The notes beneath the pieces were generated by a model. The model did not search any database. It worked only from the letters and a program-made list of their open reading frames with translations, and was not told where the DNA came from. Below are positions 684 through 23,500 of a stretch of DNA of 64,000 nucleotides, piece after piece. A program made the translations under genes and the position numbers. Source of the stretch: Bacteroidales bacterium (GTDB lineage: Bacteria > Bacteroidota > Bacteroidia > Bacteroidales > ML635J-15); NCBI GenBank assembly GCA_017617125.1, contig JAFZWY010000011.1, positions 1 to 64,000 of the forward strand, read 5' to 3'. Each line of letters begins with the position of its first letter. Position 1 is the stretch's first letter.

Positions 684-3600
684 TTATTGTTTTACCACCT
701 TGCGGTTGATGACAAAATCTGCCGTGCCAACGCGTACCGTGTAGGTTGCCTCCGGCAGAGCGCCAAGATGCAGTACCGTCTGGTAGTTGTTCTGCGGAGC
801 ATCGACATCCTCGGTATAGACGAGGCGACCAAGCACGTCGTATACATCGATACGTGCCGGCTGGTTGCCGAAGTTCTCCAACTCAACCGTAAGATCGCCG
901 CTGAACGGGTTCGGGTAAGCCAGAACCTCGGGTGCTTCGCCTGCCTCTACGCAAGTAGCGACAACCATCTCCGAAACCGTACGTGTGCCGTCGTAGTCGA
1001 CCTGAACAAGGCGGTAGTAGTTGTCGCCGCCATGTACGCCGTAGTCGGTGTAGCTGTAGTCGAGCGGAGCGATGCTATTGCCTGCACCTGCCACGCGTGC
1101 CACCTCGTAGAACTCGATGGCATTGTCGGAACGTTCGACGATGAAGTAGTCGTTGTTGCGCTCGCTGGCGGTTGTCCACTCTACGAGCGAGGAGCGTCCG
1201 TCGCAAGTTGCGGTAAGGGAGGTAAGCTCGATTGGGAGAATGGTATTGTGGTCGGTGGAGCCGAGGGTTACTATACCGTCGAAATTACCTGCACGGGTGC
1301 GTGGAATCGACGAGACACCAGCAACCGTAATTGTCTTGTGGTCGTCGGAAACCGTAACTGTCGCTTCACCGAGGTTCTTCCAGCAGTCGTAGTGTGCGGC
1401 TGCATAAATCTTGCTTCTGTCGTATGCGCTCGAATTGTGGAAATGCTCTGTTGCGGCATCAGCATCGACCTTGAGTGTAAGACCACTCAATGCAGTGTTT
1501 TCGCCAAGACCTTCTACCTTCCAGTACTCGAAGTTACTTACATGGTCGAGCTGCGGGGAGTTGCCGCTGCACATATCGTTGATATTCCACCAGCGCGGGA
1601 ACTCAGCGAGTGTGAATCCGTGGGTTCCGTCGCCGTTATCGGCTGTGCTGTGGTTGAACTTGACATTTACATCGCCAGTGTTGCTGCCGAGCGTTACGGA
1701 AAATGCACCCAGCACACCGTCGCCACCAGTCGGGAAAGTAAACGTCTCGCTGCCCTTCTTGGTGACAAGACCATCGACGTAGCTTGCGCGGGTCATTTCA
1801 GCTATGGTATTTGTAACTCTCGAATTCTCTTCAAATGTTGCATCTCCAACTACAACACCATTAGTAAATGTTGCTGCACCGCTGACTGTTATACCATTAT
1901 CGGCTGTAATTGTATGTCCTGCAGCCCCCTGATTGAAAACAACATTTTTGAAATCGATTTCGTCGCTCTTTGTTATTGTCTGGTCGCCAGAGCCGACAAA
2001 GCTGACCGTACCGCTACCTGGAGCAAAGTCGGCAGTACCATTGAAGGTCATATCACCAGCTACGCTAAGCGCATTGCTGCCGCCATTGATAGTAATGCCA
2101 TCACCTATGGTAAGGTCCTTAACTCCAGCATCAACATTCACATTAAGCGTAGGATCGCTTACACAATCGTAGTAAGAAGCTACAAACACATTGCTTGATG
2201 TAGATGGATATTCGCGACCTGCACCAGATTGCAATGTATATATTCCCTCCGCAGCATCGGTAAGTTTAAACCAGTTGTTGTCGTGATTCCAGTCTGTTGA
2301 TACACCAGACCAAACAAAATCGCCATCGAGAGAACCTAAAGGCGGATACTTAATATTTACATCCGCATACGAGAAGGACTTACAACCATCAACATTTGAA
2401 TCCTCAACAACAAGCACATACGACGAATTTCCATAAATTTCGGGGCGATAGGTCGCCGAAGTGTTAAGCACTGCACCATCTAACGTCGGCTTCCATTCAT
2501 ACGAATAAGTAGGCAGCGCCGGATTTGCGCTAAGCGTAGCTTCACTACCTACGCATACCATACCCGGTTGTAGAATATTGACATGGAAAGCCTCATTAAC
2601 ACTATAAGAGATAGGTACAGGAGCAAGGTCGCAACCTAAATTATCTGTGATAACAAGATAACTAGTGTGTGCACCTTCCTGATCTGGATGTGTTGGTCTT
2701 ATATTAAGCGTCGGATTGTTAAAGTTTTCTACACCTTCCTGCATGTTCTCAACACGCGAACCTCCAACATCTACAGTATAATTCCATGAATCAGGAAACA
2801 AATCTTCGCTGAGCGAAATTTCCCAGTTGAAAATATAGCCATTATCTATGCCAAAATTATCACATACCGACAATGTCCATGTACCATTCAGAGGGCATCC
2901 TTCGAGTTGTGCAAACAAATTTTGACGAGGATGGTAGAACTGCGTAAGATTTTCAACATCGGACGGACGTACTAACATATATGCAGATTCATATTCTTCT
3001 CCGAGATAATGATTTTGAAATTCTCCTCCACCGAGAGCACTTCCTTGCTCATGTACATATCCATGTTCACCTCCTGCATAAGTAATAGTTCTTCCTCCGA
3101 TACTAGTCCTATTTGACCAGCAATAATCAAGACCTACACCATAGGGATTGTCATCAACGCTACAATAATCACTTCCATCATGATTATTTCCACTAGGAAT
3201 ACCCATTCCCAAAGCTCTTCTATTCCCATTATCAGCTCTGTAATGCCAGGTATAATCGGATGTTCCCGACCCAAAGTCATCGTATCCTCCACCACTTGAC
3301 CTATCCCAGTCTTCAAGCAATATTGCCGATTTTGAAGCAGGTGGCGGACAAGTAATCTTTATCTGCAAATCGCCTATAAACGAATGCTCCATGTTCACTC
3401 TGACATAATTAATATTATTGGCACTAGTTATAGTGCTTCCTGTAGGAAAATCATAGAATGTCACACTCGATGTATAGCATTCATCAAGGCAGTTAGGTCC
3501 ATCAGGGATGAAAGTAGTGTCCGCTTGTCCAAGTTTTGCTGTAATATTTATTGGCAAAGGATCCACATGCACATCGGCACCATCGGCAGAACCGACGACA

Positions 3601-6600
3601 AGATCCAGATGTCGACCAAGACAGATTTCGCCAGCTGTATAGTTATTAGGATTTGGTGTCATACCACCACCTATTTTGATTCTACCAGAAGATTTTGCCA
3701 CACAACCATCACTTCGTCTTACCACAAACAAGTCAAAATCGTTGCCGTTTATCTCTTCGGGAGTATATGTAGGAGTCTTGCCATGAAGCACCACGGGATC
3801 TTCGCCATTGTGAGTATTAATACTCCAACGCCACTCCCTTATTTCTGCATCATCAAGACCTTCCACTTCTGCATCAAGTTGCAACGACTGTCCATAACAA
3901 ACAGTATAATATGGTATAGTTCCACCTGTTACCACATCAGTTCCTGCTGTACCTAGCGGCGTAGGCGGCACTATAGTACCACAAGTATCAATGAACACCG
4001 CATACAAGGTTTCATTCTGCGTAAGATTGAAATTGTCGCCTGCCATATAGTAATTATCAGCGCCATCGGCCCCGTTTTCAAGCTTGCTCCATCCGACAAA
4101 TGTTGAATGCGGAGCAGTACATATTGGCTCTACATTCGACAACCTTACCAATCCATACCCGGTCTGTTGTGCAGGCAAACTAGTCGGCTCTACTGTTCCA
4201 GGAGTTGCACATGCCGCACAGGTAGAACCACCTGCATAGGTAAGAGTATACTGCTTTGTAGCACAAAGTACCATAATTGGACGGTAATAACTTCCTGAAT
4301 ATTCATTAATATTTCCGTTATTTCCGCTAGGCACCTTATTAATCATTGTAAAAGACGAACCACTATTAGCATAGCGACAATATTGTCCGCCCACTATAAC
4401 ACTTATAAAATAATCCGTATAATATACAGGATCGGCATACACTGCGACCACAAGATTCTTTGTTGCATCATAAAGGAATGGACGCTCCAATTCAATTTCA
4501 TTCCAACCGTTATAAAATTCCACCGTCTTGTTTGCAACAACCTTGGTAATTTCAGTTATCCACCCCCCACTCAAATCGGATTCTGTAGTATTTCCCATAT
4601 ACATAGACAAAGGTGCTTCCACAGGATCGCTGCTGCTCGTACTGTAATAAAACCATATCTTAGTTATTAGATTCTGACCCGTCAGTCCTAGTTCACTACT
4701 TGTGAACAACTGTTGTGTATAAGAAAACTGATTGTGATATATAGGAGCATATTCCTCTACATACATACTCCCATCCAATCCCTCTGTTAAGAAAATTTCA
4801 TTCTCTGAAGTACATGGATATTTCACAGATACAGAAAACTCTATTATAGCAGCACAATATCTTCCGTATGCAGGGATACGCAACCTTACGTTTGCAGCTC
4901 CAGTTGCACCTACATTTACCATTACCTTTCCATCATCAAAATATGAGATAAGCGTATTGGTTGAAACGAATCTCGTTCCTTCTGGCAGACGATTACCCGA
5001 CAAACCAGGATAAACAATAGGTACCGCCTCGGCAGCAGCACCGCTTTCAAACGTGTAATCATATATATGCTCGTATGTTATCACAGGATCGGTGCAGACT
5101 ATGTCTATTACAAAATGTATTTCATCGCAAGCGCAATCGCTACCATGGGCAGGCACACGCAAGGTCGCAGATACAGGATTTGCTGTTGATGCAGACAAAT
5201 CGACGCGGAAAACCTTGTTAGCATCATCGCCATTTATGAGGTTGGCAACGTATGGATTGCTAGTCTCGCAAGTCGATACCGACGGAAGTTGGTTTGAACC
5301 ATTGTAACTTACAATGCTAGTAAGCGGATCGGCTCCAGCATTCTGTTCATATACCAACGTATATGTATTTGTTCCTGCATCATAACTATGCGATGTACAA
5401 CCTGCATACGATACACTAAGCGTAACAGGACTACATACCACTTCGACGTCGAAATCAACAGTAGTGGAACAATATCCTCCTGTAGCTGGAACATACAAGC
5501 TGATATGCGCAGAACCTGCGCGCGCAGTATTTATCCTAACTACACCGCCAGTTGCAACGGCAATGTCGGCACCTCCAGTATTGGTTACATCACCGTATGC
5601 CGACGAAGGCAACACTGCACCATTTACTCTTATGTCGGGATATTTTATGCCAGAACCCTGAGTATATGTTATTGTACCAGCACTATATTCAGCAGGGAAA
5701 TCAATTGTCGGCGTTCCTCCTGTACAATTTACCGTAAGAGTATAGAATATTGTCTTCTCACAATAGTTATGCACAGCATCCTCAGGAATATATGCGAATA
5801 TTTTAACCGTACCGTCAGAAAGAGCATGCACTTCTCCTGTTGACGGGTCAACTGTTGCTATTGCTGGTATTTCCGACGAATAGGTAACTGCAAGTCCAGT
5901 ATTGTTTGTCGCAGTATAAGTAGTTGCTACATCGCCAATATTCATAGTCTGCGACGAAAAGTCGAACTGGAATGTATTAGGATTTTCTCGACAACCGCAT
6001 TCAATAGTAATTGGGGCAGACGAAAATACCTTGGGAACAAATGCTGTGATACGTGCATAACCGTCACCTTCGCGCTGTCCTGCCGTAGTTGTACCACCTG
6101 TTACTCCACCTATGTAGCCAGATCCACCACCTCCTGCATAATTTTCAGCAGTTGCGCTATAACCGCCATACCAGCCGCCACCGCCACCACCGCATTCTCC
6201 ATTGGCATATGAGCAATCAGTGGCATATCCCCAAGCACTACCAGTAGTCTGCGTTCCTGGGTTACATCCTCCTGTTCCGGAACCAGCAATACCAGATGTA
6301 CCACCACCATCACCACCATTTCCGTTATCTGAAGCGCCGCCACCACCGCCAGCAACTATCAAGACACTACTTCTATTAGAATATCCAATACTAGACAATG
6401 TGCCTGTCATTGTGGCAATATGTGTAGCGCCGCCACCACCAGCACCACCATGTGTCGTATTCTTCCACGCACGTCCAGCACCACCACCATTGTAACCTCC
6501 TGACAATAAAGTTCTGCTACTATAAGAGCCATCATCAGTAGTACCGACACCTCCAACACAAACATACAACGTTCCGCTTGGAGACGATAATGTTCCAACA

Positions 6601-7529
6601 GAATAACCTCCTAGTCCACCAGTATATCTTATATCAGCATTACCTCCCTGAGCACCCCATACTTCCAACTTTAAGGAAGTTGCACCTTCGGGAACTGTAT
6701 ATTGCCGAACTTCTCCAGAGTAGTCAAAATTAGTTACTCGATTCTCCACACCTTCGAGACGGCAATAGTACTGCGCCCCGTTTACGGAAGTTACACTAAG
6801 TACAGAATTGTTTGCTCCAGAAAGTCCTGTTGTAATCTCTGCCGTACAAGCAGCATTCGAATACCAATGATAAGTAAAACCGGAAGGCACCCCACCAGTA
6901 ACACTTGCAGTAAGAGTTATCTCATCACCGCAAACATATTCGGCAGGAGAAACAGCAACACTAAGTTGCCTACTTGTAATTTCAATATCATCTATAAGCA
7001 AATAAAACATATTGGAACAATTGAAGTGACGGAACGCAATATATACTTGCTGCCCAGCGTATGCAGACAAATCAACATGCTTTTCGCCCCATGTTCCTGT
7101 TGCCCTTAAGCCGGCACCGCCACCATAACTCATTGTCTCTTCTCCAAGACAATGATATGCAGTCAAATCCCTAGGATTAACGTTTGTTGAAATATATACA
7201 CCATAATGTTCCTCGTCATCATTTGCATCTTGCACTGCGGCAAAATATTTCAAATCTATAATACCGGATGCTGGCAAAGTAATACGTGGAGTTATTGCCC
7301 AGTTGTCAGGATACAATACACCAAAACCATTAGCATAAGACTGTGACAATATGGCATCTGCAGAACCATTACGACCAAATCCTGTACCCAACAAGCTTGA
7401 AGCAAGCCGCCAATCATAACCATCTCCATCCGAATCGACAAATGTCCAACCAGCAGTACTACTTGCATCAAAATTATATGATGTTTGCGCCCACGCGCCC
7501 GCGTATAGGCATAAAAATGCCGCCACCAC
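684..7529 (-). CDS. Giant T9SS-exported modular surface protein
   Basis: Secreted multidomain protein of unknown binding partner, predicted to be exported by Sec and then the type IX secretion system. Going from the N-terminus: signal-peptide core, a cleaved-adhesin-like beta-sandwich (about residues 15-190), an Ig-like segment, a very glycine-rich domain (about 270-496) resembling the ALK/LTK-type Gly_rich family, a Big_2-like segment, a Listeria-Bacteroides-type repeat, a proprotein-convertase P-domain-like region (about 1350-1580), and a C-terminal sorting domain (YPNPF, then VYDVLGRLVYT, ending VINRKVVKQ). The listed start is a GTG at 7529, which leaves a signal peptide without its basic n-region. 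The frame is open upstream to a poly-G tract (7617-7627) and joins ATGs at 7669/7705 only if the tract gains one G. The true product is probably about 2,340 aa. Its C-terminal several hundred residues are closely related to the 5,252-aa neighbour. Confidence 0.88.
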   Translation of the reverse strand: MVAAFLCLYAGAWAQTSYNFDASSTAGWTFVDSDGDGYDWRLASSLLGTGFGRNGSADAILSQSYANGFGVLYPDNWAITPRITLPASGIIDLKYFAAVQDANDDEEHYGVYISTNVNPRDLTAYHCLGEETMSYGGGAGLRATGTWGEKHVDLSAYAGQQVYIAFRHFNCSNMFYLLIDDIEITSRQLSVAVSPAEYVCGDEITLTASVTGGVPSGFTYHWYSNAACTAEITTGLSGANNSVLSVTSVNGAQYYCRLEGVENRVTNFDYSGEVRQYTVPEGATSLKLEVWGAQGGNADIRYTGGLGGYSVGTLSSPSGTLYVCVGGVGTTDDGSYSSRTLLSGGYNGGGAGRAWKNTTHGGAGGGGATHIATMTGTLSSIGYSNRSSVLIVAGGGGGASDNGNGGDGGGTSGIAGSGTGGCNPGTQTTGSAWGYATDCSYANGECGGGGGGWYGGYSATAENYAGGGGSGYIGGVTGGTTTAGQREGDGYARITAFVPKVFSSAPITIECGCRENPNTFQFDFSSQTMNIGDVATTYTATNNTGLAVTYSSEIPAIATVDPSTGEVHALSDGTVKIFAYIPEDAVHNYCEKTIFYTLTVNCTGGTPTIDFPAEYSAGTITYTQGSGIKYPDIRVNGAVLPSSAYGDVTNTGGADIAVATGGVVRINTARAGSAHISLYVPATGGYCSTTVDFDVEVVCSPVTLSVSYAGCTSHSYDAGTNTYTLVYEQNAGADPLTSIVSYNGSNQLPSVSTCETSNPYVANLINGDDANKVFRVDLSASTANPVSATLRVPAHGSDCACDEIHFVIDIVCTDPVITYEHIYDYTFESGAAAEAVPIVYPGLSGNRLPEGTRFVSTNTLISYFDDGKVMVNVGATGAANVRLRIPAYGRYCAAIIEFSVSVKYPCTSENEIFLTEGLDGSMYVEEYAPIYHNQFSYTQQLFTSSELGLTGQNLITKIWFYYSTSSSDPVEAPLSMYMGNTTESDLSGGWITEITKVVANKTVEFYNGWNEIELERPFLYDATKNLVVAVYADPVYYTDYFISVIVGGQYCRYANSGSSFTMINKVPSGNNGNINEYSGSYYRPIMVLCATKQYTLTYAGGSTCAACATPGTVEPTSLPAQQTGYGLVRLSNVEPICTAPHSTFVGWSKLENGADGADNYYMAGDNFNLTQNETLYAVFIDTCGTIVPPTPLGTAGTDVVTGGTIPYYTVCYGQSLQLDAEVEGLDDAEIREWRWSINTHNGEDPVVLHGKTPTYTPEEINGNDFDLFVVRRSDGCVAKSSGRIKIGGGMTPNPNNYTAGEICLGRHLDLVVGSADGADVHVDPLPINITAKLGQADTTFIPDGPNCLDECYTSSVTFYDFPTGSTITSANNINYVRVNMEHSFIGDLQIKITCPPPASKSAILLEDWDRSSGGGYDDFGSGTSDYTWHYRADNGNRRALGMGIPSGNNHDGSDYCSVDDNPYGVGLDYCWSNRTSIGGRTITYAGGEHGYVHEQGSALGGGEFQNHYLGEEYESAYMLVRPSDVENLTQFYHPRQNLFAQLEGCPLNGTWTLSVCDNFGIDNGYIFNWEISLSEDLFPDSWNYTVDVGGSRVENMQEGVENFNNPTLNIRPTHPDQEGAHTSYLVITDNLGCDLAPVPISYSVNEAFHVNILQPGMVCVGSEATLSANPALPTYSYEWKPTLDGAVLNTSATYRPEIYGNSSYVLVVEDSNVDGCKSFSYADVNIKYPPLGSLDGDFVWSGVSTDWNHDNNWFKLTDAAEGIYTLQSGAGREYPSTSSNVFVASYYDCVSDPTLNVNVDAGVKDLTIGDGITINGGSNALSVAGDMTFNGTADFAPGSGTVSFVGSGDQTITKSDEIDFKNVVFNQGAAGHTITADNGITVSGAATFTNGVVVGDATFEENSRVTNTIAEMTRASYVDGLVTKKGSETFTFPTGGDGVLGAFSVTLGSNTGDVNVKFNHSTADNGDGTHGFTLAEFPRWWNINDMCSGNSPQLDHVSNFEYWKVEGLGENTALSGLTLKVDADAATEHFHNSSAYDRSKIYAAAHYDCWKNLGEATVTVSDDHKTITVAGVSSIPRTRAGNFDGIVTLGSTDHNTILPIELTSLTATCDGRSSLVEWTTASERNNDYFIVERSDNAIEFYEVARVAGAGNSIAPLDYSYTDYGVHGGDNYYRLVQVDYDGTRTVSEMVVATCVEAGEAPEVLAYPNPFSGDLTVELENFGNQPARIDVYDVLGRLVYTEDVDAPQNNYQTVLHLGALPEATYTVRVGTADFVINRKVVKQ

Positions 7530-7705
7530 AAGTAGCGAACGTAGCAGAAGTTTTAACTGAGAATGATTTTCTAATTGGACGCAACTATTTATACAAACTG
7601 CAGAATAGTTATTACGCCCCCCCCCCCATTATTATACAAACCGCCGAAATACGAAGTTTCTTTCTTCATATCAATATCTTTTTTATACATACTGCGGTTT
7701 TTCAT
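7530..7705 (-). other. Probable N-terminal extension, out of frame by one base
   Basis: Reading minus from ATG 7705 (or 7669) gives MKNRSMYKKDID, MKKETSYFGGLYNN, then glycines and stop TAA at 7591-7589. With 12 G instead of 11, the frame continues through VQLENHSQLKLLLRSLL into VVAAFLCLYAGAWAQ. That restores a normal basic and hydrophobic signal peptide. The long pre-signal leader resembles that of the paralogue starting at 24316, which also has over 50 residues before its hydrophobic core. Either the sequence records an OFF phase, or the homopolymer length is an assembly error. Confidence 0.7.
7617..7627. repeat. Homopolymer C11/G11 tract (putative phase-variation tract)
   Basis: Eleven consecutive C on the plus strand lie inside the likely N-terminal coding part of the giant gene. 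On the minus strand the in-frame ATGs lie upstream of the G run and the signal-peptide core downstream of it. Length changes by slipped-strand mispairing would switch translation on and off. Confidence 0.9.
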
Positions 7706-8557: not shown

Positions 8558-11500
8558 TTAGTTCTTCACAACCTTGCGGTTTATTACAAAGTCGGAAGTT
8601 GAAACTCGAACATTGTAGGTCGAAGGTGGCAATTCACCGAACTGCAGAAGCGTACTGTAGCTATTCTGCGGATCATCGACCGCTTCGGTGTAAACCAGCT
8701 TGCCGAGCATATCGAAGACATCGATACGTGTAGGACGGTTACCGAAGTTTTCAAGTTCTATAGTAAGTTCATTGTTGAACGGGTTCGGGTAAGCCATAAC
8801 CTCAGGTTCTTCGCCATTGTCGTCGAAACAGAAGGCTACTACTATTTCCGAAGCCGAACGTGTACCGTCGTAGTCGACCTGAACAAGACGGTAATAGTTG
8901 TCACCGTTGCGTCTGCCGTAGTCGCTGTAGCTGTAGTCGATAGGCTCGATGCTATTGCCGGCACCAGCCACGCGTGCTATCTCAACAAAGTTAATTGCAT
9001 CGTCGGAACGTTCGATTATGAAGTAATCGTTGTTGCGCTCGGTTGCAGTTGTCCATTCTACCAATACCGACTTGCCATTGCAATTAGCCGACAAAGCTGT
9101 AAGTTCGATAGGCAACAAGGTAGCTCGGTCGATAGAACCAAGGGTTACAATACCGTCGAAGTTGCCGCCACGCGTACGTGGAATCGAGTTAATATTTGTT
9201 ATCGTTATTGTGCTATGCGAACCAGCAACGGTAGTTGAAACTCTGCCTAGGTTTTTCCAGCAGTCGTAGTGAGCTGCAGCAACTATATGCTGTGCCGAAT
9301 AATCGCTTACACCGTCGTGGAAATGCTGTGTCGGATGATCGGCATCCACCTTGAGTGTCAGGTTAGTCAGGTTAGTGTTTGCGCCTAGGTTATCGACCTT
9401 CCAGTACTCGAAGTTACTTACATGGTCGAGCTGCGGATCGTTGTCGCTACACATATCGTTTTCACTCCACCATTCAGGATAGTAATCGGGAGCATCGCTA
9501 GAGAAGCCTGACTCGTCTGTACCATCGCCATGCTTGTGGTTGAATTTGACAGACATACCCGACGAAGTATTATTTTCGATCTTGGTTGTGAATGCACCAA
9601 GTACGCCATCATTACCAGTCGGGAATGTGAACGAATTCGGATTACCCTTCTTTACTACGGTTCCATCAACATAACTGCTGTAGTTGCGTACCGATGCTGT
9701 TGCATTTTCGTTGAAAGTTGCATTACCAGTCAAAATACCCTTTGTAAAAGTTGCAGAACCATCAACTGTAATACCATTGTCCGCGGTAATATTATAAATA
9801 CCCGATTGTGAGAATTCTACATTCCTGAATGTCTGTGCATTAGTTATCGACTGGTCTTCGGAACCGACAAAGAATACATAGCTTTGAGCTCCGCCAGCAA
9901 CCTCATTGGCATTCAAGGTGCCGATATTCTCGAGGTTTCCTGCGATACTCAATCCTGTACCAGCAGTAACAGTAAGCGATGCTCCGGAACCAATAGTAAG
10001 ATTCTTAGCGTAAGCATTGTTGCTTAATGACAAGTCGTTGGTCTTTGTACACTGCGATTCGCCGATGTATACATTATCTCCTGTTGTCGGAAGCGAAGTG
10101 CTGCCAACAGAATAAGAACCACCGCCATTGTTTACGTACCAGTTGGTAGCTGAATTCCAGTCGTTGCTGGTTGTATTTAGATATTTACCATGCCATATAT
10201 AATCGTAGGCGGCTGCATTTGCAATATCAGGCAGATTTGTAATTATGATATCGTCAATAATACCGCCGCAACCGTGGGCATCGTATATTTCGGCTCTAAA
10301 CCTATCACCCGAACGGGTTGGGATATAGTAGAATTCAGCTGCAGTCTCTCCATTTACAGGATTAGTAACGCCCTGGTCAGTGAGAGGAACCCAATCAGTT
10401 TCTCCTTCTGGCAGAGTCCACCACTTGAACATAGACTGGCTACCTGGTACCATACCGCTTCCACCAAGATCAGCCTGTACATGAGCCTGTTCACCCAAGC
10501 AAATTTCAGGACTAGCAATATGAGGTATAGCAGGCTGTGAAATATCATATGTAAATGCATTTCCTGTAGTCTCGCAACCGATGTTATCGACAAGTACGAG
10601 TTCGCAACTGCGAGTCAACGATGCAGGATATGATGGCAAAGTAATGCCAAGGCTTTCCATATTGGCAATTGTCGGGTGAATATAGAAGTCTGGGTTGTCG
10701 TTTATTTCACTTATCAAGTTTTCTGTATTACCTGAGTCACCAGAGTCGAAACCACCACAGTTGCCCATGTGAGAATCAACCAGTTCGATATCGTAAGACC
10801 ATGCGTTGTCATCAATATCCTTCAAACCGATTTCCCAACTGAAGATATAACCGTTATCCAATCCCCACGAGTCACAAATCTGTATTGTCCATACACCGTT
10901 TAACTTACAGCCTACAAGACTCTGGAAACTCTGGTACGGATGATAGAACTGTGTACCATTGCTTACATTCGAAGGCTTTGCTATCAAAGCATTAGTATAG
11001 CCACGCTCATGGTTTGCATTGTCGATAATATTTCCGTCTGCAGCAGCATACTGGTAGCTGTCGCTATTAGACCAGCAGTAGTCTAAACCTTCGCCACTTG
11101 GATTGTAGCTTGGCGTCAATATATAGTTGCTAAGACCATCGTGCATATCCGGCTTACCGAAGCCCAATGAAGCAGCTTCAGTGTACCATTGAGTAGCATA
11201 ATTACTGCCATAACCACCGTAACGGCTTGAACCTGAACTATAATAGTTCGCAGGATTATTATTAACCCAACCTCTAAACTTATAATAATAGCCGCCAGCA
11301 CAGAAATCAGAAGGTGTATTAGTTGAAGTACTCCTTAACATAGCTTGAAGTTCAGCAAGCAATTCAGCTATAGTCATATTCCTATCGAAAGCTCTACCTT
11401 CCTGACGTATACCTGTGGAAGTGCCGTTGTAACCGACATATACTGGCATACTAACATTCTGCCTGTCAAGACGGCCTTGCTGGCAACCACCACTTGAATA

Positions 11501-14500
11501 TTGATTATTGATATATCTGTCGAAGCTAGCATAACATCTTACAACCAAGTACGGCCATGCATAAGTTGCATTATCGAGACCGCCGCCAGCTGAATTTTTC
11601 TGGTCCTGCAGCAATATTGCAGTTCTAGGTTCATAGTTCGGAGTGTAGCACTTAAGTGAAATCTGTACGTCACCTATATGCGAGTGCTCCAGATTAATTT
11701 TTACGTAGTCGATATTTGATGCATCGGTAATAACTGCATTTTCCTTGAAGTCGGCAAATTCGACATCTGAAGTATAGCATTCACCAACACCATCGGGGAT
11801 AAACTTAGTAGTAGATACACCCTGAGTCGACTTGATTTCCAATGCTTCATTATCAACTTCAATCATAGCATCAGGCACTACGTCAGGATCACCCACAATA
11901 ATCTCAGTAGCCTTACCTACGCAAATATTACCAGCAAACGGGTTGTCATAAGTAGTTCTAAGACCATGTGAAACCCATACACGTAGAGGAATCTCCTGCT
12001 TACATCCATCATGACCATCAATCTTGAGCAAGATATCGTGACCCATAGTAGTGGTGGCCTCATAAGTTACAGAAGATTCATTGCTCTTTACGTGCGCACG
12101 TCCATCGTGACGGTTTACGTCCCAGCTATAAGTAATGTTAACATTGTCATGAACGTTAGGTTTCTTCTGTGCTTCAAGCGTCAATACTTCGCCCTCGCAT
12201 ACATTAAACTTCTGAATACCGTCACTATCAACACCACCATCTGCTATACCCTGGTAAGCCCTGCCTTCTTTTACGATTTTAACATAATCGCAAATTCTAT
12301 ATATTGCATACAAGGTCATATCGTGTGCGCTTGCAATGTATGCTCCAGGTGCATATGGAGGCTCATATGACGGGTCGGTTTGATCTGGAGTTGGATTGGT
12401 GTCCCATCCCAAGAATAAACCTATACTACATGACGGTAAATCGCTCGTTACAAAAGTAGGATAGCCAGTTACTGCATGTGTGCTCGCAATTGCATTAGAT
12501 ACACCATGCTCTTGATTGTCATTCATACAATTTGTACTAGCATCGTATACTATTGTACATGCACTGCCATCATAAATACAGAACTTTGTATTAGGACGTG
12601 TTCTTTCGCAAAGTCTTGAGTGACCGCTTATATTATTGTTTCCATAATTATTATTATCGTTATAATAAGATATTACAGAATTGAAATTAGTCTCAGTATA
12701 ATCGAATACATAACTTTCACCGTTATTGTTTGCCGAATTATCGTCGATTACAAGCAACAGGTTTCTGCCACTATATGGGAATGGTACATCAAGGAAGTAC
12801 GAATTCCATCCTTGCGAGCAGTTCAGTGCTCCAGAATATACAAGATCGGCTTCTGTTACATCGAGAACCCAGTCATTTGTACCGGAGAACGCTTCCTTAT
12901 CGGTTTCCTTCAAGTACATCTTTACCGAGTTCTTTGCTGTCATCGGCCTATTGTAAGCATACTGGAAGCTGATAGAAGTTATAAGACCTGTAGCATTGAT
13001 TTCGTTTTGCTTAAACAATAACTGTGTATATGTATAATTATATTTATTGTTGACAGGTGCTCTATAGGTAGTAGTTGTTGCATTACCAATTTCTCTACAT
13101 TGCTCACTACCGACAATTACAACAAAGTCAGCAGTACGCTGGCACTTACCAGCTTCTTCTGGTGTGAATGTTACCGTTATGGTTGCCTCACCTACAGATG
13201 TTCCTGTTATTATACCGTTCTCATCAACTATAGCTATAGTCGGATTAGAGGTCGAATATGTTATTCTGCCAGGAACATTTGTTTGATTATTTATAAATGA
13301 GCTCAAATCATCGAATGTTTGAGTTACAAGAACAGTACCACTGGTTTGTGTGAGTCCGAATGCTCCAGCAACAGCAGAACAGATACATACATTATCGATT
13401 GCCACACTGTAGCAGAAGTAATCGGTTTCGCATACCCATCTGAATGCAATGTAAGCACCAGCAGGCATTGAAGGCAAAGATATCTGGTTCAAACCAGCAG
13501 TTGCCGAACCGAAGTTGTAGAGGAATGGTGCAGCATTGGCTACTTCAACAAAGGTAGCAGCATCGTCGGGATCGGTCATATAACCAACGGTAAGAGTACC
13601 ATAGTCCACATATTGCCACCAAGCATTGAATGTAATCATACCGCCATTCTCCATACCCGAAATGTAAGGCATTACAACGTAGTTGGTATAACCGTAATTC
13701 TGACCATACAACTGATAGTTACCTGATGTAATTTCAATAGCGTTACCATCCATTGCAAAGTAGCCGTTATATGCATGAGGTGCACCTTCGGCATAAGTAC
13801 CAGAATATATTCTACGCCAGCAGCTAGGAATTCCTGCATCCTGATAATACAAATCGTTAGCAGATGTATAGTCTTCGAAGTCGAAGCAGTCTGGATTTGT
13901 CAAAGTGTTGCAATCTACAATCACATTATATTCGGCCTGCATAGCACAATATAAAGTCAAACCGTCGAATACTGATGGCAAGGTTGCTGTTATGGTAGCC
14001 TTACCTGCAGACAAACCAGTAACAACACCATCGCTATCAACCGTAGCAATTCTAGTATCGCTGCTGCTCCACTGAATTGTACCAGAAGGCGATGCTGTAT
14101 TAGTAAGATATGTATTGCTTGATAAGTTTACTGTACCTCCTACATTAATTCTTGCCGGAGTTGCGATAAATGCCAAGTTTCCAGAACGGTCTTCACAACC
14201 TGTGATACAGAATCTAACCTGGTTCTTTGTCGAAGACAATGTTCCGGCAAATGATGCATTTTCCGGATCATAATTGGTATTATCGTTACGTATATGCAAT
14301 GCCTGGTTGCCTGCAGCATTAAATGCAAGGCACGACATAGCACTTTGATACGAACCTGTATTGTCATCAACTATTACGACAACATTCTTTGTTCCGTCAT
14401 ATTCTACGGCATTAGTGAAATCAATTTGTGTCCACTGTCCATTAGCAAATGTTACAGATCCCGAATATACCAGATTTTCTGCAGTAACAGGTATCCAGTC

Positions 14501-17500
14501 GGTCGTACCAGTAAAGGTTGACTTAGTAGTACATACCACATACATGTTTATAGTTCTAGTCTGTGCTGTTCCATTGTTAAAGAACGAGACTCCATTCAAA
14601 AGACCAGCAGAACCAATCTCTGCAGGTGTGTATATCTGCTGTGAATATGAGTAGTTGTAGTAAGATTGAGCAGGCAAATCGGCATTAACTGCAGTACCGC
14701 TACCAATACGACGGCAAACCGATGGAGTTACTTCGCAAACGTTGCTCCAATCGCTTTCCTCGCCAGCGCCACAAACAGCCTTTACGCGGAAATAATATGT
14801 TGTTTCGGCAGTGAGACCTGTGAATTCCTTTTGCGGAACATTAACATCTACGCTACCAAGAACTGTAGAGAAACTACTGTTGGTACTATATTGAATAGTC
14901 CAGTTGGTTGCAGAACCAGCCTCCCACGAAATCGTAGCAGAAGTAGTGGTAACATCCGATGCAACAAGATTTCTTGGTCTTGCACAATCTGGACAATCAA
15001 CAGTGTGAACAATACCTGAAGCTATAGCTCCCGTGCCAGAGATTATTGCATTGCCATTTACATCTTTTATCACGTACGAACATTCACTATCATAATTACC
15101 ACTAACCCATTGGAAAGTAATTGTACTACCATCGATTATAGGTAAAGTTCCTGTAGCAGATCTACCACTAGCAATAGTCCATGTGTCAATAATTGTACCC
15201 GTCATTCCATTTACAACATTGATGGCAGCACCATTCCAGCCGTCACCGTAGCTGTCGGTAAGTTCGTAGCTTATTTCACACATATCACCTGTTACAAACG
15301 AAACTGATCTTGCTTCACTCGGTCCGCTTTCGCAAACTGTACGTACCATCACAGTGTAAGTTTCACCTGCGGTCAAATTAGTGAGGTTTATATGAGTGGT
15401 CGTAACTTGTGTCCAATCTCCATCATTCTTTTTATATTCCCATAATGCAGAGTTACCATTGGGAACCCATGAAATCTGAGCAGATGTTGCAGTTATGTTC
15501 GAAACTGTAAGATTTCTTGGTTTGCGGCATAATACCTCTTGACAACTTACAGTATGGCTAATCGCATTATCAAAAGCATCTTCTCCTGAGAAGATTTCCT
15601 CATCATTTCTGTCATATACTATGTATGAACAATCTTCAGCTGAATTTCCATTTTCCCATACGAATGATAATTCTCTTCCATCGCAAACCGAAAGAGTACC
15701 TTCAGCCGATGCTTCTCCACTAGCTACAGTCCAAGTATCGAGAATTATACCTGTTAATGCATCCACAACATTGATTGCATTACCTTCCCAGCCGTCTCCT
15801 TCGCTATCAGTCAGTTCGTATCTTATTTCACACATATCGCCACCATCACACAATGAAGTATAGAACGACACTGCTGTACTTGGTCTACTTTGATCGTTGA
15901 AGCTGTCGCTGCAATATGCTCTTACTTCGACTGTATAAACAGTTGCTTGGGTCAAACCAGTGATTGTTGCAGTTCTGTTTGCTGTACCAGTAACACCATT
16001 AAGATCTTCCCATGTTCCTCCATCACCATTAAGTCTGTACTGCCATTTTGCTGGTTCTGCTCCAGTTGGAGTCCATTCAATAGTAGCAGTGTTCAAGGTC
16101 GTAGCAACAACTGCAAGACCTGTAGGCTTAAAGCAAGTAGGAATATAGTCGAGCATTACATTGTCGATGTGCAAGTTGTTATCAGCATTGCTTTCTGTAG
16201 ATTCGCCATAGAATGCTATGATTACTTCGTCGTTGCCATAGCTTGTAAGGTCGATGGCAACCTCCTCGCCTTCGAGAGTAATATTGTTATATACATAGGT
16301 AGAACCTACATTGTCATATTGGCGAAGTATTGTCCAGGTTGCACCACCATCGGTACTAATCAAGACAACAAACTTGTCGTCGAGTCCTGAAGTTGCTGCA
16401 GGCTGAAGGGTTCCGCTATATGCAGTCAGAGCAAGGTCGAAAGTCAATTGTACATTTGGTTCCATTACAATAGTAGGAGTTGTCAACCATTTGTAGCATG
16501 ATCCACCATATATATTAACTCTGGCATGATCGTTGAAAACTCCATTACCCGAATTGAAAATCCAGCCGCTACCAGATGCAAGTGGTGTACCATTCATCAC
16601 GTTAGATAAATGTCCTGTATATTGATTCCAGTCAGCTGGCGCTGTAGATGCGAATTGTTCGAGGAATACAATGCCATACTTTGTTGTTGTTGAAACAGCA
16701 TCCGTCCATTCCGAATAATCGCCACCGCAATCGGCCTGAACCTGGAATTCGTAGCTGGTAGAAGCCAAAAGTCCAGTAACTGTATAAGTTGTAGATGTTA
16801 TACCGTTATTTGTAGTCCAAGCCTGCTCAGAAACCTTCTTATACTGGATATTCCACATAGTTTCGGCACCGCCAGCAATCCATTCAAGAGTGACATCGTT
16901 CAAACCCCTGTCAGTAATAACTAAATTGGTAGGTTTAGCACAAGTAGGAGCAACCTTTACTACAACATCGTCCATGTACGTCTGTCCTCCATATTGGCTT
17001 CTACCTTCAAATATTACATAGTATACACCATCAGACTCAATAGTAAATGGAATTTCGTATTTGTACCATCCCGATGCTGCTTCTGCACATATTATATTTG
17101 AATTTATACTTGATTGAACAGCATAGTTACGGGAGATAAATCCAAGATCGGCAGCATCGTTGCCAACTGACACAAGATCGTCGGTCTTGCTTACGTATAC
17201 ATTTATACCCTCTTCCTGACTACTGCTACCAGTAGCATTTCTATAAACTCTCAAGGATACTACATAGTCACCAGCAGCCATAGACAATGCCTTTGTAACA
17301 AGATTATGCTTAGAACCAGCCTTAGTGTTTCTCAATTGAACCATAGGAGGATTTGAACCTGTTCCCTGAGTATATGTATAAGAAGCCCATGCTCCATCTG
17401 GGTAATCGGTGCCAGATCCAGCTCCTTCTTCTGTTCTTTCCTGCGACCAGCACAATGGCGGGAATGTCTCTGCTACACCAGCAAAGTTTTCGGCAAACTG

Positions 17501-20500
17501 ATGATCTGCATCAACAGTAAATACACCACATGCGGTTAAAAATGAACCAATTGCACTCCAATAGCTATAATCGCCACCACAATTAGCTTTTACTCTTACA
17601 TAATATGTAGTTGCATCAGTAAGACTAGTAATATCAGCAGTAGGATTTGTACTAACATTTACAGTTTCGTACGAAGCGAAATCACGGCTAGTGCTGTATT
17701 GTAACTCCCATTCGGTTTCATTACTATTTTCAGTCCACGAAATTGTAGCTCCGCTAATTGTAATATTTGTAGCTACAATATTTGTCGGAGGCAAACATGA
17801 CGGAACATCAAGCACATTTATTGTATAGTCATGTACTATAGTATATGTACCTGTAGGACAAGGATCTGCAGCTGCTGCAGCAGAAATGGAGGTTACAAAA
17901 TTATCATATCCGCTATCGGAACCAATTATACGCATACGATGTTGTCCCAATGGAGTAGAAGCAGGCAAAGTAAATGTTGCTTCAAGAACTGTAGGATTAG
18001 TATTTTCCGACATTCCTACATATACGACTTCGTTGCCATCGAATACAAGGTTGTCGTTGAAATCGATCCATATTATTGTTCCGTATGTATATCCTGTTGC
18101 ATAGGTAATACTAACTGTTGTCTCCAGTCCTATATTTACGGCACCGACAAGATTCGAAAAATTGCCATAGAATGGAGCTGTTACAAGCAAACCATTTGCA
18201 TCTGTATTATTTACAACTTCGTTACCAGCACCAAACGAAACGCCAATAATACCCTTGCCGTCTTTTGATGAAGGAGTAGGAGCGCAATAACCAGTATAGA
18301 AATTATAAGAATTAGTCCATGCGCTGGATACCGCTGGAGTACATTTTGACTGAACCTGTACTTCGTATGAAGTTTCAGGATTAAGATTTTCGATGGTATA
18401 TGGGTTTGTAACACCATTTACTACTGTCCAGGCAACAACATTCGGAACTTTGTATCTTAAGTTCCATACACTCTCACCAAAACCAGCTGTCCACGATATA
18501 GTAGCCGATGTTGCTGTAACCGAAGCAGACAAATTGGTTGGAGCCGGGCAATTGGGAAGAGTTGTAAACGAAGCGGACCTTGACCAATTACTAACGCCAA
18601 TATTGCCACGGCAGTTTGCCTGGACTCTTACTTCATAATGGGTATCCGGAATAAGGTCTTCGATGGTAAATGGAGTTGTTACATTACTAATTTCGGTCCA
18701 GTCTGGATCAATATCAGTTTTGTATCCTATGTTCCATGTATCTTCATTTCCACCGGCAGTCCATGATATAGTAGCAGTGGTTATAGCTACGTCACTGACA
18801 GTAATACCAGTTGGTCTATCGCAGGCTGGAGCTACACCAGGAGTAATAGCAAGCCTGATCTGGTTCTTTGCATTCAAAACTGTACCAGAATAACTACCTG
18901 GATTCTCAGGATCAAAATTGGTATTATCTTGATACTTATATATTGCTTGTCCATCCGCGTTGAATACATCGCAATTCAAACCGCTTTCCCAGGAACCAGT
19001 GTTGTCATCAACAATAACAGCAAGGTTACTTGTCCCATTATAGTAAAAATCGCTAGAAAAAGGAATAGACGACCATACGCCAGCAGCAAACGTAACCGTT
19101 CCGCTATATACCATATCATCGTCATTTACTGAAATCCAATCGCTACCATTAGCAAATGTGGTCTTATCGGTACTTACAATGTATATGTCCAATGTACGTG
19201 CACGAGAAGTTCCCACATTGTAGAAGTCGATGCTACTGATGTAGCCAGCAGTTCCGATTTCTGCAGCTGTGTATATCTGCTGTGTCAATGAATAATCGTA
19301 CATTGAATGTGTAGGCAAATAGTTACTTGTTGCTGTTGCCGAGCCAATAATATATTTGTCCGTAGGCTCGAAGCTGAAAGTTGCACTCCATTCGCTTTCG
19401 CCATCAATTCCTCCACAAACAGCCTTTACGCGTGCATAATAAGTAGTTTCAGCTGTAAGGCCAGTGAGATTTGCCGAAGGTGTTCCTGTCACGGGTTCCG
19501 AAACTGCGCCAGCAAAGTCTGAAGCTGTACCGTATTCAAGTACCCAATCGGTAGCTGTACCATTTTCTGTCCAGCTAAGGGTAGCAATTGTGCCATTGCC
19601 TTGAGTTAAGACAGCAGCTAAATCAGTCGGTATATGACAAGCAACATCTGTAGTAAACGATGCAATGTCTGACCATGCACTTACATCATCTACAGCACAA
19701 ATTGCTCGAACTTTAACAGTGTAATCTGTTTCTGGGGTAAGACCAGTAAGTGTAAATGGATTAGTATTAGCTTCAATAAGATTATTTTCGTCATTATTTA
19801 GGCAAATCTGCCATGTAGGTTCACTTCCACCTGAAGTCCATGTCAAATCGGCTGTTCTTGCTGTAATACTAGATACAGACAAATTACTTGGTTCTACACA
19901 ACTTGGTATCTCCTCCACAATTATATCGTCGATATAAGCAGCATTTGTTGCCCTACTTGAGCTAGCAGCATCAATCATAATAGCAATATAATTGCCAGTA
20001 CCAGTCAAATTTATAGTAAATTTCTGATAAGATGTAGTTAATGCCAATTCTTCACCAATCAGCTCAAACGTACTGACATCCATTGGATCTGTCATAATAC
20101 CAATCTTGAAAGTACAGTTCGCATTATCACCTCTTGCCCATAATTTAATTCTTTTACCATTTAGGTTTTCCATCGGAGGCAAGATTGCATATTGTGGCTG
20201 CGGATCATAATCGGTATATTGTGTATAATAGGATTTAAATCTTAAATTATTAGGATTTGAATTTGAGAACGAGCTATATAAGGTAGGATAATACTTGTAA
20301 GTATTATGGGTACATGTGTTAATATATGTCCAGCAACTTGGCAAAGTGCGTGCTGTTGGATTAACAGCCATTGGTACTGTATAGCCATCAAAATTTTCGT
20401 TCCATGGATAAGATGTTATGGCTTCGCAAGCTGTTTTGAATTCAATTGCCGAACTCCATGCACTATAATCACCGCCTCCACAATTAGCACGAATCTTTAC

Positions 20501-23500
20501 AGTATATTCTGTTTCTGGAGTAAGACCGGTAAGTGTATATGGATTAGCGGTTACATCGACAAGATTGTCTTCGTCACCATTTATGCAAATCTGCCATGCA
20601 GTTTCGCTACCTATTCTTGTCCACGACAAATCGGCAGTTGTTGTATTTATATTAGAAACCGCCAAAGCGGAAGGTCTTACACAAGACGGAAGATCCTCCA
20701 TATGGAAACGAATCTGATTCTTCTTATTCACTATAGTACCGGTAGCTGTTGGAGACAATGGATCTTGATTATCGCTATCGCTATAGAAACGTATTGCCTG
20801 TGCAACTGCATCAAACACTCGGAATTGCTTGTTATTTTCATAAGAACCTGTATTGTCGTCAACTATTATAGCCACGTTGTAGATTCCATCATATATAAAT
20901 GGATTATTAAGCGTAATTGTAGTCCAATCATCAGCAGCAAAAGTAACCTCTCCATTGAATACAAGGTCACCCGACGATACTGGAATCCAGTCGCTACCAC
21001 TAGTAAATGTTCCCTTATTGGTGGCTACCATATAAATATCCAAGGTTCGGGTCACAGCAGCACTAGCATAGAAATCAATACTCGTAATATTACCTGCGGT
21101 GCTTCCTATCTCAGCTACGGTATAAATCTGCTGCGTCATTGAATAATTATAGTATGTGTATGTAGGTAATACGTTTTCTGTTGCTGTTCCTGTACCTATA
21201 GTTACAATTGCTGTAGGTGTGAATGAATAAACATCACTCCATTCGCTTTCATTACCTACGCCACATATAGCCTTAACTCTGGCAAAATATTCAGTTTCTG
21301 GAGTAAGACCAGTTATTGAATAAGCAGGATTAGTACTTACATTAACTTCTATCCTATCAGCGAAAGTATTATCCGTACCATACTGCAATACCCAATTTGT
21401 TTCCGATGCGCCAGTCCAAGACAAATCGGCGGCTCTTGCCGTAACATTTGAAGCCGCCAAAGCTGTAGGAGCAGCACAGGCAGCAATAGTTGTAAACGTT
21501 ACTGAAGATGTCCAATTAGACAGGCCCTCAGAACCGCAATCTGCTTGAACTTGTACTTCGTAGGTAGAAGATTCGTCAAGGCCTACAAGCGTATAGTTAT
21601 TAGTAGGAACAACTATGACTTCGGTCCATGAGGATGCCGAAGTTTTCTTGTACTGCAACTTCCAACTAGTTTCACTTACATTATCCCATGATACTAATGC
21701 AGAAGATGCTGTAATATTTGCACTTGTCAATCCTGTAGGAACCGGACAAGCAACTTCCGTTGTAAATGATGTAGACGTTGGTACGCTAAAGCCGTTAGAT
21801 CCACAATCTGATCGAATTTGTAACGAATACGTTGTCGCTTCATCTAACCCTGTAATTGTACCAGAATATGTTCTACCAGCATTATAGTCTAAATCAATCC
21901 AGCTGCCGCCATTAAGACAATACTGCCAAGCGTTTTCTCCATTGCCTGCTGTCCATTCGATGGCGATAGTGTTTACAGTAGATGATGTAGTAATAATGGT
22001 AGGTGGTACACAATTAATTATGCTTATATCATCTAAATAAATATAGGCATCATTATAACCACAATTGCTAGTGCCCTTGAATACAATAACAACATTATTG
22101 CTAGTACAATATGACGAAATATCAATTGTTTTTTCTGTCCAGGTTGATACACCTGTCAACCCAGTAGCAAGCTCTGTGTCGTACGTAGTACCGCCATCCG
22201 TTGATATATATACAGAGAAATCACCTCCTGCCGGATTCTTATACCAGAATTTCAACAATGCTTTAGAGCGAACCGTCAAATCAAAAGCTGGAGTCTTCAG
22301 CATGTTAGTATTATTACTGCTATTGCTATATGAATTGAATCTCAAACAAGCTCCTTCATGACCTGTTGCATAATAATTCCATTTGTACGATTCATTATTT
22401 GTTGTTCCTTCGCTATTGTCCCAGCATGCAGGAATTCCAGATGACAATGAAGAGAAATCTTCGCTCCAAGGGAAAGTAGTTATTACATCGCATGCTGTTT
22501 GGAACTGAAGCACCGAACTCCATGCTCCATAATCACTGCCACCGCAATATGCACGTACCTTAACATAATATTTAGAAGCGCTTGCCAGCGAAGTCATATG
22601 GTAAGTAGCTGCGTTAACAATCTCTTCGGTTGCTCCTGTAAAATCGCTTGAAGTACTATATGCCACCTGCAACTGCGAAGCTTCTCCAGCTGTCCATTCA
22701 AGTGTTGCTCCTGAAGTAGTGATATCGCTGACTGCAAGATTGATAACATCATATCCGCAAGTCATAAGTGTTATGCTAACGTTGTCGACTGCAGCGGGGG
22801 GCTGAGTGCCACCACTATTATCGTTGCGCCATGCAAAAACCAAATAATAGTTGCCTGCAGCTACATTAATTGCCAATTCTTGTGTTTGCCATTCATTAAC
22901 TAAATTAAGTTTGCTACCGCCATCCAAGGCAATCCAACCACTTGGAAGAGAAGTAGTAGAAAGTCCAGAAGGCAAAGTCGTTCCTGCAGTAAGAGTTACC
23001 GATGCTGGAACCAAAGCTACTCTCATGAAGTCCCAAGTACTTTCTCCATTGGCTTTCCAATTGTATGAAAATTGATATTTGCCAGTAGCAAAGTTAAGTA
23101 ACTTAGTGGCATACACCATAACAGAACCAGTAGTATACTCATAGGTAGTACCGTTGTCATCGGAAATATACAATGCATGTGTTCCTCCATTATTAACAGC
23201 GGTTCCCCAAGTCCATGCGTTGGTGTTATTGCCGTTTATAAATTCCCAACCGCAAGTTGCACCTTCAAAATCATCATTCCAGCTGTCTCCGACTAAAGTA
23301 GCTTCTGCTGTTGTCGAGAAACTTATCGAAGTACTCCAGTCACTTTTATCTCCACCGCCACAGTCAGCTTTTACGCGGACATAGTATGTAGTTAGAGTAT
23401 TCAAGCCTGAGAGAGAAATCGACGGAGTAGTATTCACATTATTTGATATCGCATCAGAGAAATCAGCATTTGGACTGTATTCGAGAACCCAGTTTGTAGC

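Follow-up and report, generated by a model that had tools for sequence, protein, structure and literature searches.

The locus and its reading frames

The window, by which we mean the whole 64,000-nt stretch of DNA analysed here, comes from an uncultured Bacteroidales. The relatives of this organism that bear a name were assembled as MAGs, with yak, water buffalo and red deer among the samples. On its minus strand the window carries an ORF of 2281 codons, located downstream, on the same strand, of an fn3-rich type IX secretion system (T9SS) paralogue of 5252 residues and of rpoC/rpoB. Besides its Cleaved_Adhesin and glycine-rich domains, the ORF holds Ig-like stretches and ends in a C-terminal sorting domain that exceeds the curated cut-off, as in T9SS cargo. 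The N-terminal Sec signal peptide of that class, which we judged by eye and by hydrophobicity, is complete only in the frame fused across a homopolymer of 11 G (G11), hereafter the ON frame. With n as the number of G in this tract, the features are the following:

7628-7705, minus strand: pre-tract leader with ATG codons at 7705, 7690 and 7669, in one shared frame that is open up to the tract
7627-7629, minus strand: ATG abutting and overlapping the tract (AT followed by G11), ON when n mod 3 = 1
7617-7627, minus strand: G11 homopolymer
7551-7616, minus strand: post-tract leader of 22 codons (RNNYSAVCINSCVQLENHSQLK), joined only in the ON frame
7485-7550, minus strand: signal peptide LLLRSLLVVAAFLCLYAGAWA followed by Q, with GTG 7529 within the hydrophobic core
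684-7529, minus strand: main ORF of 2281 codons, T9SS cargo (Cleaved_Adhesin, ALK_LTK_GRD, Por_Secre_tail)
6978-7460, minus strand: Cleaved_Adhesin domain (PF07675), residues 24-184
6042-6671, minus strand: glycine-rich domain (PF12810), residues 287-496
696-917, minus strand: T9SS C-terminal sorting domain (PF18962), residues 2205-2278, 36.8 bits against a cut-off of 27
8558-24316, minus strand: paralogous giant T9SS cargo of 5252 aa (fn3/Big_2/Por_Secre_tail), whose pre-signal leader is long and has no G tract

The minus strand reads ...GTTTGTATAATAAT-GGGGGGGGGGG-CGTAATAAC... across the tract, and its elements are ordered as ATG (7705) AAAAACCGCAGT ATG (7690) ... ATG (7669) AAGAAAGAAACTTCG ... 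TATAATA ATG (7629) GGGGGGGGGG CGTAATAACTATTCT.... The initial annotation had placed G11, the proposed slippage site, at 7627-7617 between the ATGs 7705/7669 and the signal-peptide core. The letters confirm this: the tract separates the three in-frame ATGs from the signal peptide of the 2281-codon ORF. Two near-copies of a 17-mer (TTCGGCGGTTTGTATAA and TTCTGCAGTTTGTATAA) lie on either side of it.

With the 11 G of the assembly, the frame of ATG 7669 ends after 26 codons, the upstream ATGs yield 26 to 38 residues and ATG 7629 yields five. Every upstream start therefore terminates early and the gene reads OFF. With 9, 12 or 15 G, the upstream ATG frame runs into LKLLLRSLLVVAAFLCLYAGAWAQ and the 2281-codon ORF. 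Translation of the sequence thus agrees with the initial annotation for both the early stop and the fusion. Its proposal that tract length would turn the gene on or off fits the frames at n mod 3 = 0, but it overlooked ATG 7629, which fuses to the signal peptide and the ORF with 10 or 13 G and gives an ON reading with a shorter leader. Two length classes (n mod 3 = 0 or 1) are ON, each through starts of its own, which leaves n mod 3 = 2 as the one class that is fully OFF.

The open frame of the signal peptide starts at two stop codons immediately before the tract. No ATG, GTG or TTG was found in the ORF frame between the tract and the signal core, and the first such codon is GTG 7529. Further upstream, an exact Bacteroidetes -7 box (TAnnTTTG) was not detected within 900 nt. 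A scan of the upstream region identified only imperfect inverted repeats (the best of 42 nt at 74%), with no pair typical of invertible promoters evident.

Maintenance of the gene and rarity of the tract

The orthologue of the 2281-codon ORF in genome G010 is 82% identical over almost its full length. Its leader is 27 aa long and does not contain a G tract, which shows that this locus has not conserved the tract. Across 2254 codons, none of them an internal stop, dN/dS relative to this orthologue is 0.277, which implies that the gene body is maintained by purifying selection and is not a decaying pseudogene. In the same alignment, codons about 800-1200 of the ORF (window 684-7529) are near-identical to the orthologue (dS 0.02) and other segments show dS of 0.3-1.8, which may be a sign of recent between-species recombination.

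These results bear on the possibility that the gene was recently and permanently switched off in this strain by a frameshift in its leader. The assembled frame is indeed OFF, and the leader of the nearest orthologue differs and carries no tract. However, the 2281 codons are intact under the selection just described and a one-base change in G11 would be easily reversible, so that we regard such a loss as hardly credible.

The tract is the sole run of nine or more G in the assembly (2,879,044 bases, 57 contigs, 91% complete) and the only homopolymer of the window to pass our scan thresholds (at least 9 nt for A/T and at least 7 nt for G/C). From the composition of the window, a genome of this size is expected to contain 0.08 runs of at least 11 G under a first-order Markov model (0.18 under a zero-order model) and about 2 to 4 runs of at least 9 G. 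For runs of at least 8 G, the expectation is 10.7 and four are listed (G11 and three G8). Long G runs are thus fewer than composition predicts, which makes G11 stand out. No exact match to the tract context was found in the genome contigs searched.

We also identified an interspersed repeat consisting of 5 to 11 G followed by TAATTGATTGATATTCAAC..., present in the close clade at 12 places in 7 genomes with at most 3 mismatches; the reversed-pattern control yielded 0. In this repeat the G run is followed by TAATTGATTGATATTCAACNNATTACAAG, and several copies lie, in antisense orientation, some 100 nt upstream of genes for secreted proteins. Its loci include L064, L065, L082, L086, L095, L098, L145, L153 and others (in G002, G007, G008, G010, G019 and G020), with one copy in the genome of the window (G000:C54:113418-113448). 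Reading the window tract as a copy of this repeat was not convincing. We likewise rejected the idea that the tract belongs to a mobile insertion, which came from the MBOAT gene of G007 (L083), where a G9 has similar flanking letters. The alignment of MBOAT orthologues presents a variable loop at this place (G002 reads AGGGAGGGGCAATCT...) and an in-frame TAA precedes the tract in G007, so that L083 is no clear insertion and is not a switch.

Leaders and poly-G tracts across the genus

We surveyed 42 distinct secreted ORFs of at least 600 codons among the fetched loci, using a simple hydrophobicity rule to call signal peptides. Most presented ordinary short n-regions, and in 11 of the 42 the closest ATG lay at least 20 codons from the signal core; the proteins with long leaders belong mainly to the giant T9SS class. 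The orthologue and paralogues of the window gene have leaders of 20-96 codons that begin with ATG, none of them with a further ATG nearer the signal core, and the long pre-signal leader that the initial annotation had reported for the paralogue starting at 24316 was recovered. In the relatives, leaders are hypervariable (pN close to pS, with common indels) and their frame still remains open over 74 to 171 codons. This suggests that the leader is a translated but sequence-tolerant segment. A search of the genus for a DNA homologue of the window leader returned only the window itself, and its tract therefore seems to be a separate instance of this arrangement. A signal peptide similar to that of the window (AAFVFLYAGAWAQ) sits behind leaders in L052 and L061. 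The pre-signal leaders of six loci (L089, L100, L104, L213, L217 and L223) include translated copies of short repeats that also occur between genes (CAATTGTCAATTGTCCATT... and AACCTTCAGCTCGGCGAAGCC), so that repeat DNA has been recruited here to code for protein.

We enumerated tracts of nine or more G across the genus, with one MAG per species, fetched most of them together with the G8 tracts of several genomes and placed them against open frames. Six further giant T9SS-type ORFs were found to carry a sense-strand tract of G8 to G10 between an ATG and the signal peptide, in frame in all six:

L089 (G008): G10 in the leader
L100 (G019): G10 in the leader
L103 (G019): G10 in the leader
L104 (G020): G10 in the leader
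L108 (G022): G10 in the leader
L149 (G008): G8 in the leader

The probability of six in-frame tracts out of six is (1/3)^6 = 0.0014 if these are independent, which they are not fully, as the loci were picked after inspection and several share one leader. In L103 and L104, no ATG, GTG or TTG lies between the tract and the signal core, so that the tract must be read there; other loci have a start after the tract (e.g., an ATG in L149) and the tract is not obligatory in each of them. In the close clade, 6 of 39 tracts of nine or more G fall in leaders (binomial P of 2e-7 to 1e-5), for a clade chosen after inspection and a leader footprint estimated at 0.7-1.4% (about 1%) of the genome, from 90 to 144 sorting-domain genes per genome and 200-300 nt each. 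Related genomes thus present in-frame leader tracts in six other giants, although the orthologous leader itself has none. Together with the long leaders common in this class and the purifying selection on the ORF, these tracts lend good support to the fused reading proposed in the initial annotation.

It is conceivable that the protein is made regardless of the tract, from GTG 7529 or from a CTG (7547), a rare type of start, at the signal-peptide boundary, and that the upstream ATGs and the tract are non-coding. The GTG mechanically opens the ORF and the CTG would give MLRSLLVVAAFLCLYAGAWAQ, a passable signal peptide. A start inside the hydrophobic core, however, yields a product that lacks a basic n-region, and the ATG leaders of the orthologue and paralogues, as well as the missing downstream starts in L103 and L104, make this explanation improbable. 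Transcriptional slippage or ribosomal frameshifting on G11 could instead generate a fixed in-frame fraction, setting a level and not a heritable switch. RNA polymerase can slip on 11 identical bases in a row, and the body is under selection despite the assembled OFF frame. The other leader tracts are already in frame, however, and slippage there would only lower the product; we find this explanation quite improbable.

Around or after the tract, six loci (L089, L103, L104, L108, L209 and L207) have some 50-120 nt in common, with 75-96% DNA identity, and they often differ in their upstream and mature parts. In this leader family, the tract site is G10 in L104, L108, L089 and L103, GGGGAGGGGG in L209 and AGGGAGGAAG in L059; L207 has no tract. 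The 10-base length of the site, and hence the frame, is retained while its purity changes. That four tracts are all exactly G10 fits strong selection for the ON state, but it also fits a tract that hardly changes. A peptide likeness between GGGGRNNYSAV in the window and GGGVQPEFSAV in L089 was suggestive but too short to count.

Another explanation is that the tract is real and translated but mis-sized, its true length being 12 or 10: the gene would be ON with an unusual run of glycines, and length changes would be rare accidents and not an evolved switch. MAG assemblies can mis-size homopolymers and, because each species is represented by a single MAG, the OFF state of G11 could be an artefact. 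All six other leader tracts of the genus are in frame and those of the shared family are G10 or interrupted 10-mers, as this explanation would have it. Spanning short reads, however, usually call G11 correctly. Moreover, long G runs are below expectation, yet those of the clade gather in the leaders of one protein class. In favour of the mis-sized reading, a review warns that some mutation-prone tracts are accidental (PMC11868660). On balance, we view a mis-sized tract as unlikely, if realistic.

A proposed translational switch

Our preferred reading, to which we assign a probability of roughly 60%, is that G11 is a slipped-strand contingency tract in an N-terminal leader that is translated as part of a giant T9SS cargo or adhesin. 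We propose this length-variable switching from the sequence, the frames, the uniqueness of the tract, selection on the body and the in-frame tract leaders of relatives. Replication slippage (slipped-strand mispairing) would add or remove a G and thereby change n. In the n mod 3 = 0 class, initiation at ATG 7705, 7690 or 7669 would lead into the signal peptide and the body of 2281 codons; in the n mod 3 = 1 class, initiation at ATG 7629 would do so with a shorter leader. In the assembled class, n mod 3 = 2, translation in both frames would stop after 5 to 38 codons without yielding a secreted protein. Here we infer slippage and its rate, start usage, expression, reversibility and surface location; the T9SS sorting domain and the Cleaved_Adhesin domain are consistent with a surface trait.

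The mechanism itself is already known. Poly-G/C contingency loci are classical in Neisseria, Campylobacter and Bordetella (PMC5084427, PMC8437040, PMC1891110), and the arrangement described here is alike in that a mononucleotide tract of G, located in the 5' part of the coding region, sets the frame of a surface gene by its length. G11 also reaches the length at which such tracts are long enough to slip (about 8-9 G/C or more). In contrast to those loci, the host belongs to the Bacteroidales, the tract lies in a long leader before the signal peptide of a T9SS giant and variation is proposed from sequence. A second likeness is with lic2A of Haemophilus influenzae, a multi-start contingency gene (Dixon et al. 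2007, as cited in PMC6479036). As far as that citing account describes this type, several start codons lie upstream of or adjoining the repeat and different lengths can give different expression states; the window tract is likewise predicted to have ON starts in two length classes. Systems of the lic2A type, however, involve tetranucleotide repeats and LOS enzymes, whereas here a mononucleotide tract would control a secreted adhesin, with putative use of the abutting ATG.

In Bacteroides, switching is presented as recombination-mediated, and phase variation by invertible promoters has been reviewed (PMC11868660). These systems belong to the same order and also exert stochastic control over surface structures, but the switch proposed here would be translational and the upstream inverted repeats are imperfect. 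The gene resembles other T9SS cargo with Por_Secre_tail and Cleaved_Adhesin domains in its signal peptide (in the ON frame) and C-terminal sorting domain, but that class is not defined by poly-G tracts or by leaders of 20-96 codons before the signal peptide. A literature search, conducted mostly without subscription papers, found no paper joining T9SS, phase variation and homopolymers. The shared leader module is a possible novel side of the finding.

Several other tracts were observed in the genus. A G8 (L155, G019:C3:36073-36082) joins a 65-residue start frame to the body of an N6/N4 DNA methyltransferase, out of frame as assembled, making it a candidate phase-variable methyltransferase; a search for close orthologues found none. 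An in-frame G9 within an acyltransferase-3 gene (L084, G008:C10:77095-77103) marks a candidate phase-variable surface-modifying enzyme. Another G9 lies at the end of the signal peptide of a secreted open frame of 1412 codons and is assembled out of frame (L076, G006:C77:36540-36548). Finally, a conserved C8-C9 tract is located about 48-78 nt upstream of the open frame of orthologues that start with MKKIALISLF in four species (L102, L129, L147 and L154, in G019, G000, G008 and G010, respectively) and is possibly a promoter or leader tract.

More speculatively, the genus may possess a poly-G phase-variable repertoire carried on exchangeable leaders: a tract module of about 100 nt would move between giant T9SS adhesins with unrelated mature parts and make each recipient switchable, and the G8 of L155 and the G9 of L084 might belong to the same set. 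We offer this only as a tentative possibility.

Phase variation in Bacteroidales has been described mainly as DNA inversion. If the proposed switch is confirmed, uncultured rumen Bacteroidales would switch secreted adhesins of several thousand residues by single-base slippage, with effects on their attachment to feed or host and on their encounters with phages and antibodies. Wherever the tract was assembled out of frame, MAG annotations would then miss or truncate such genes. Existing rumen read sets allow a direct count of tract lengths.
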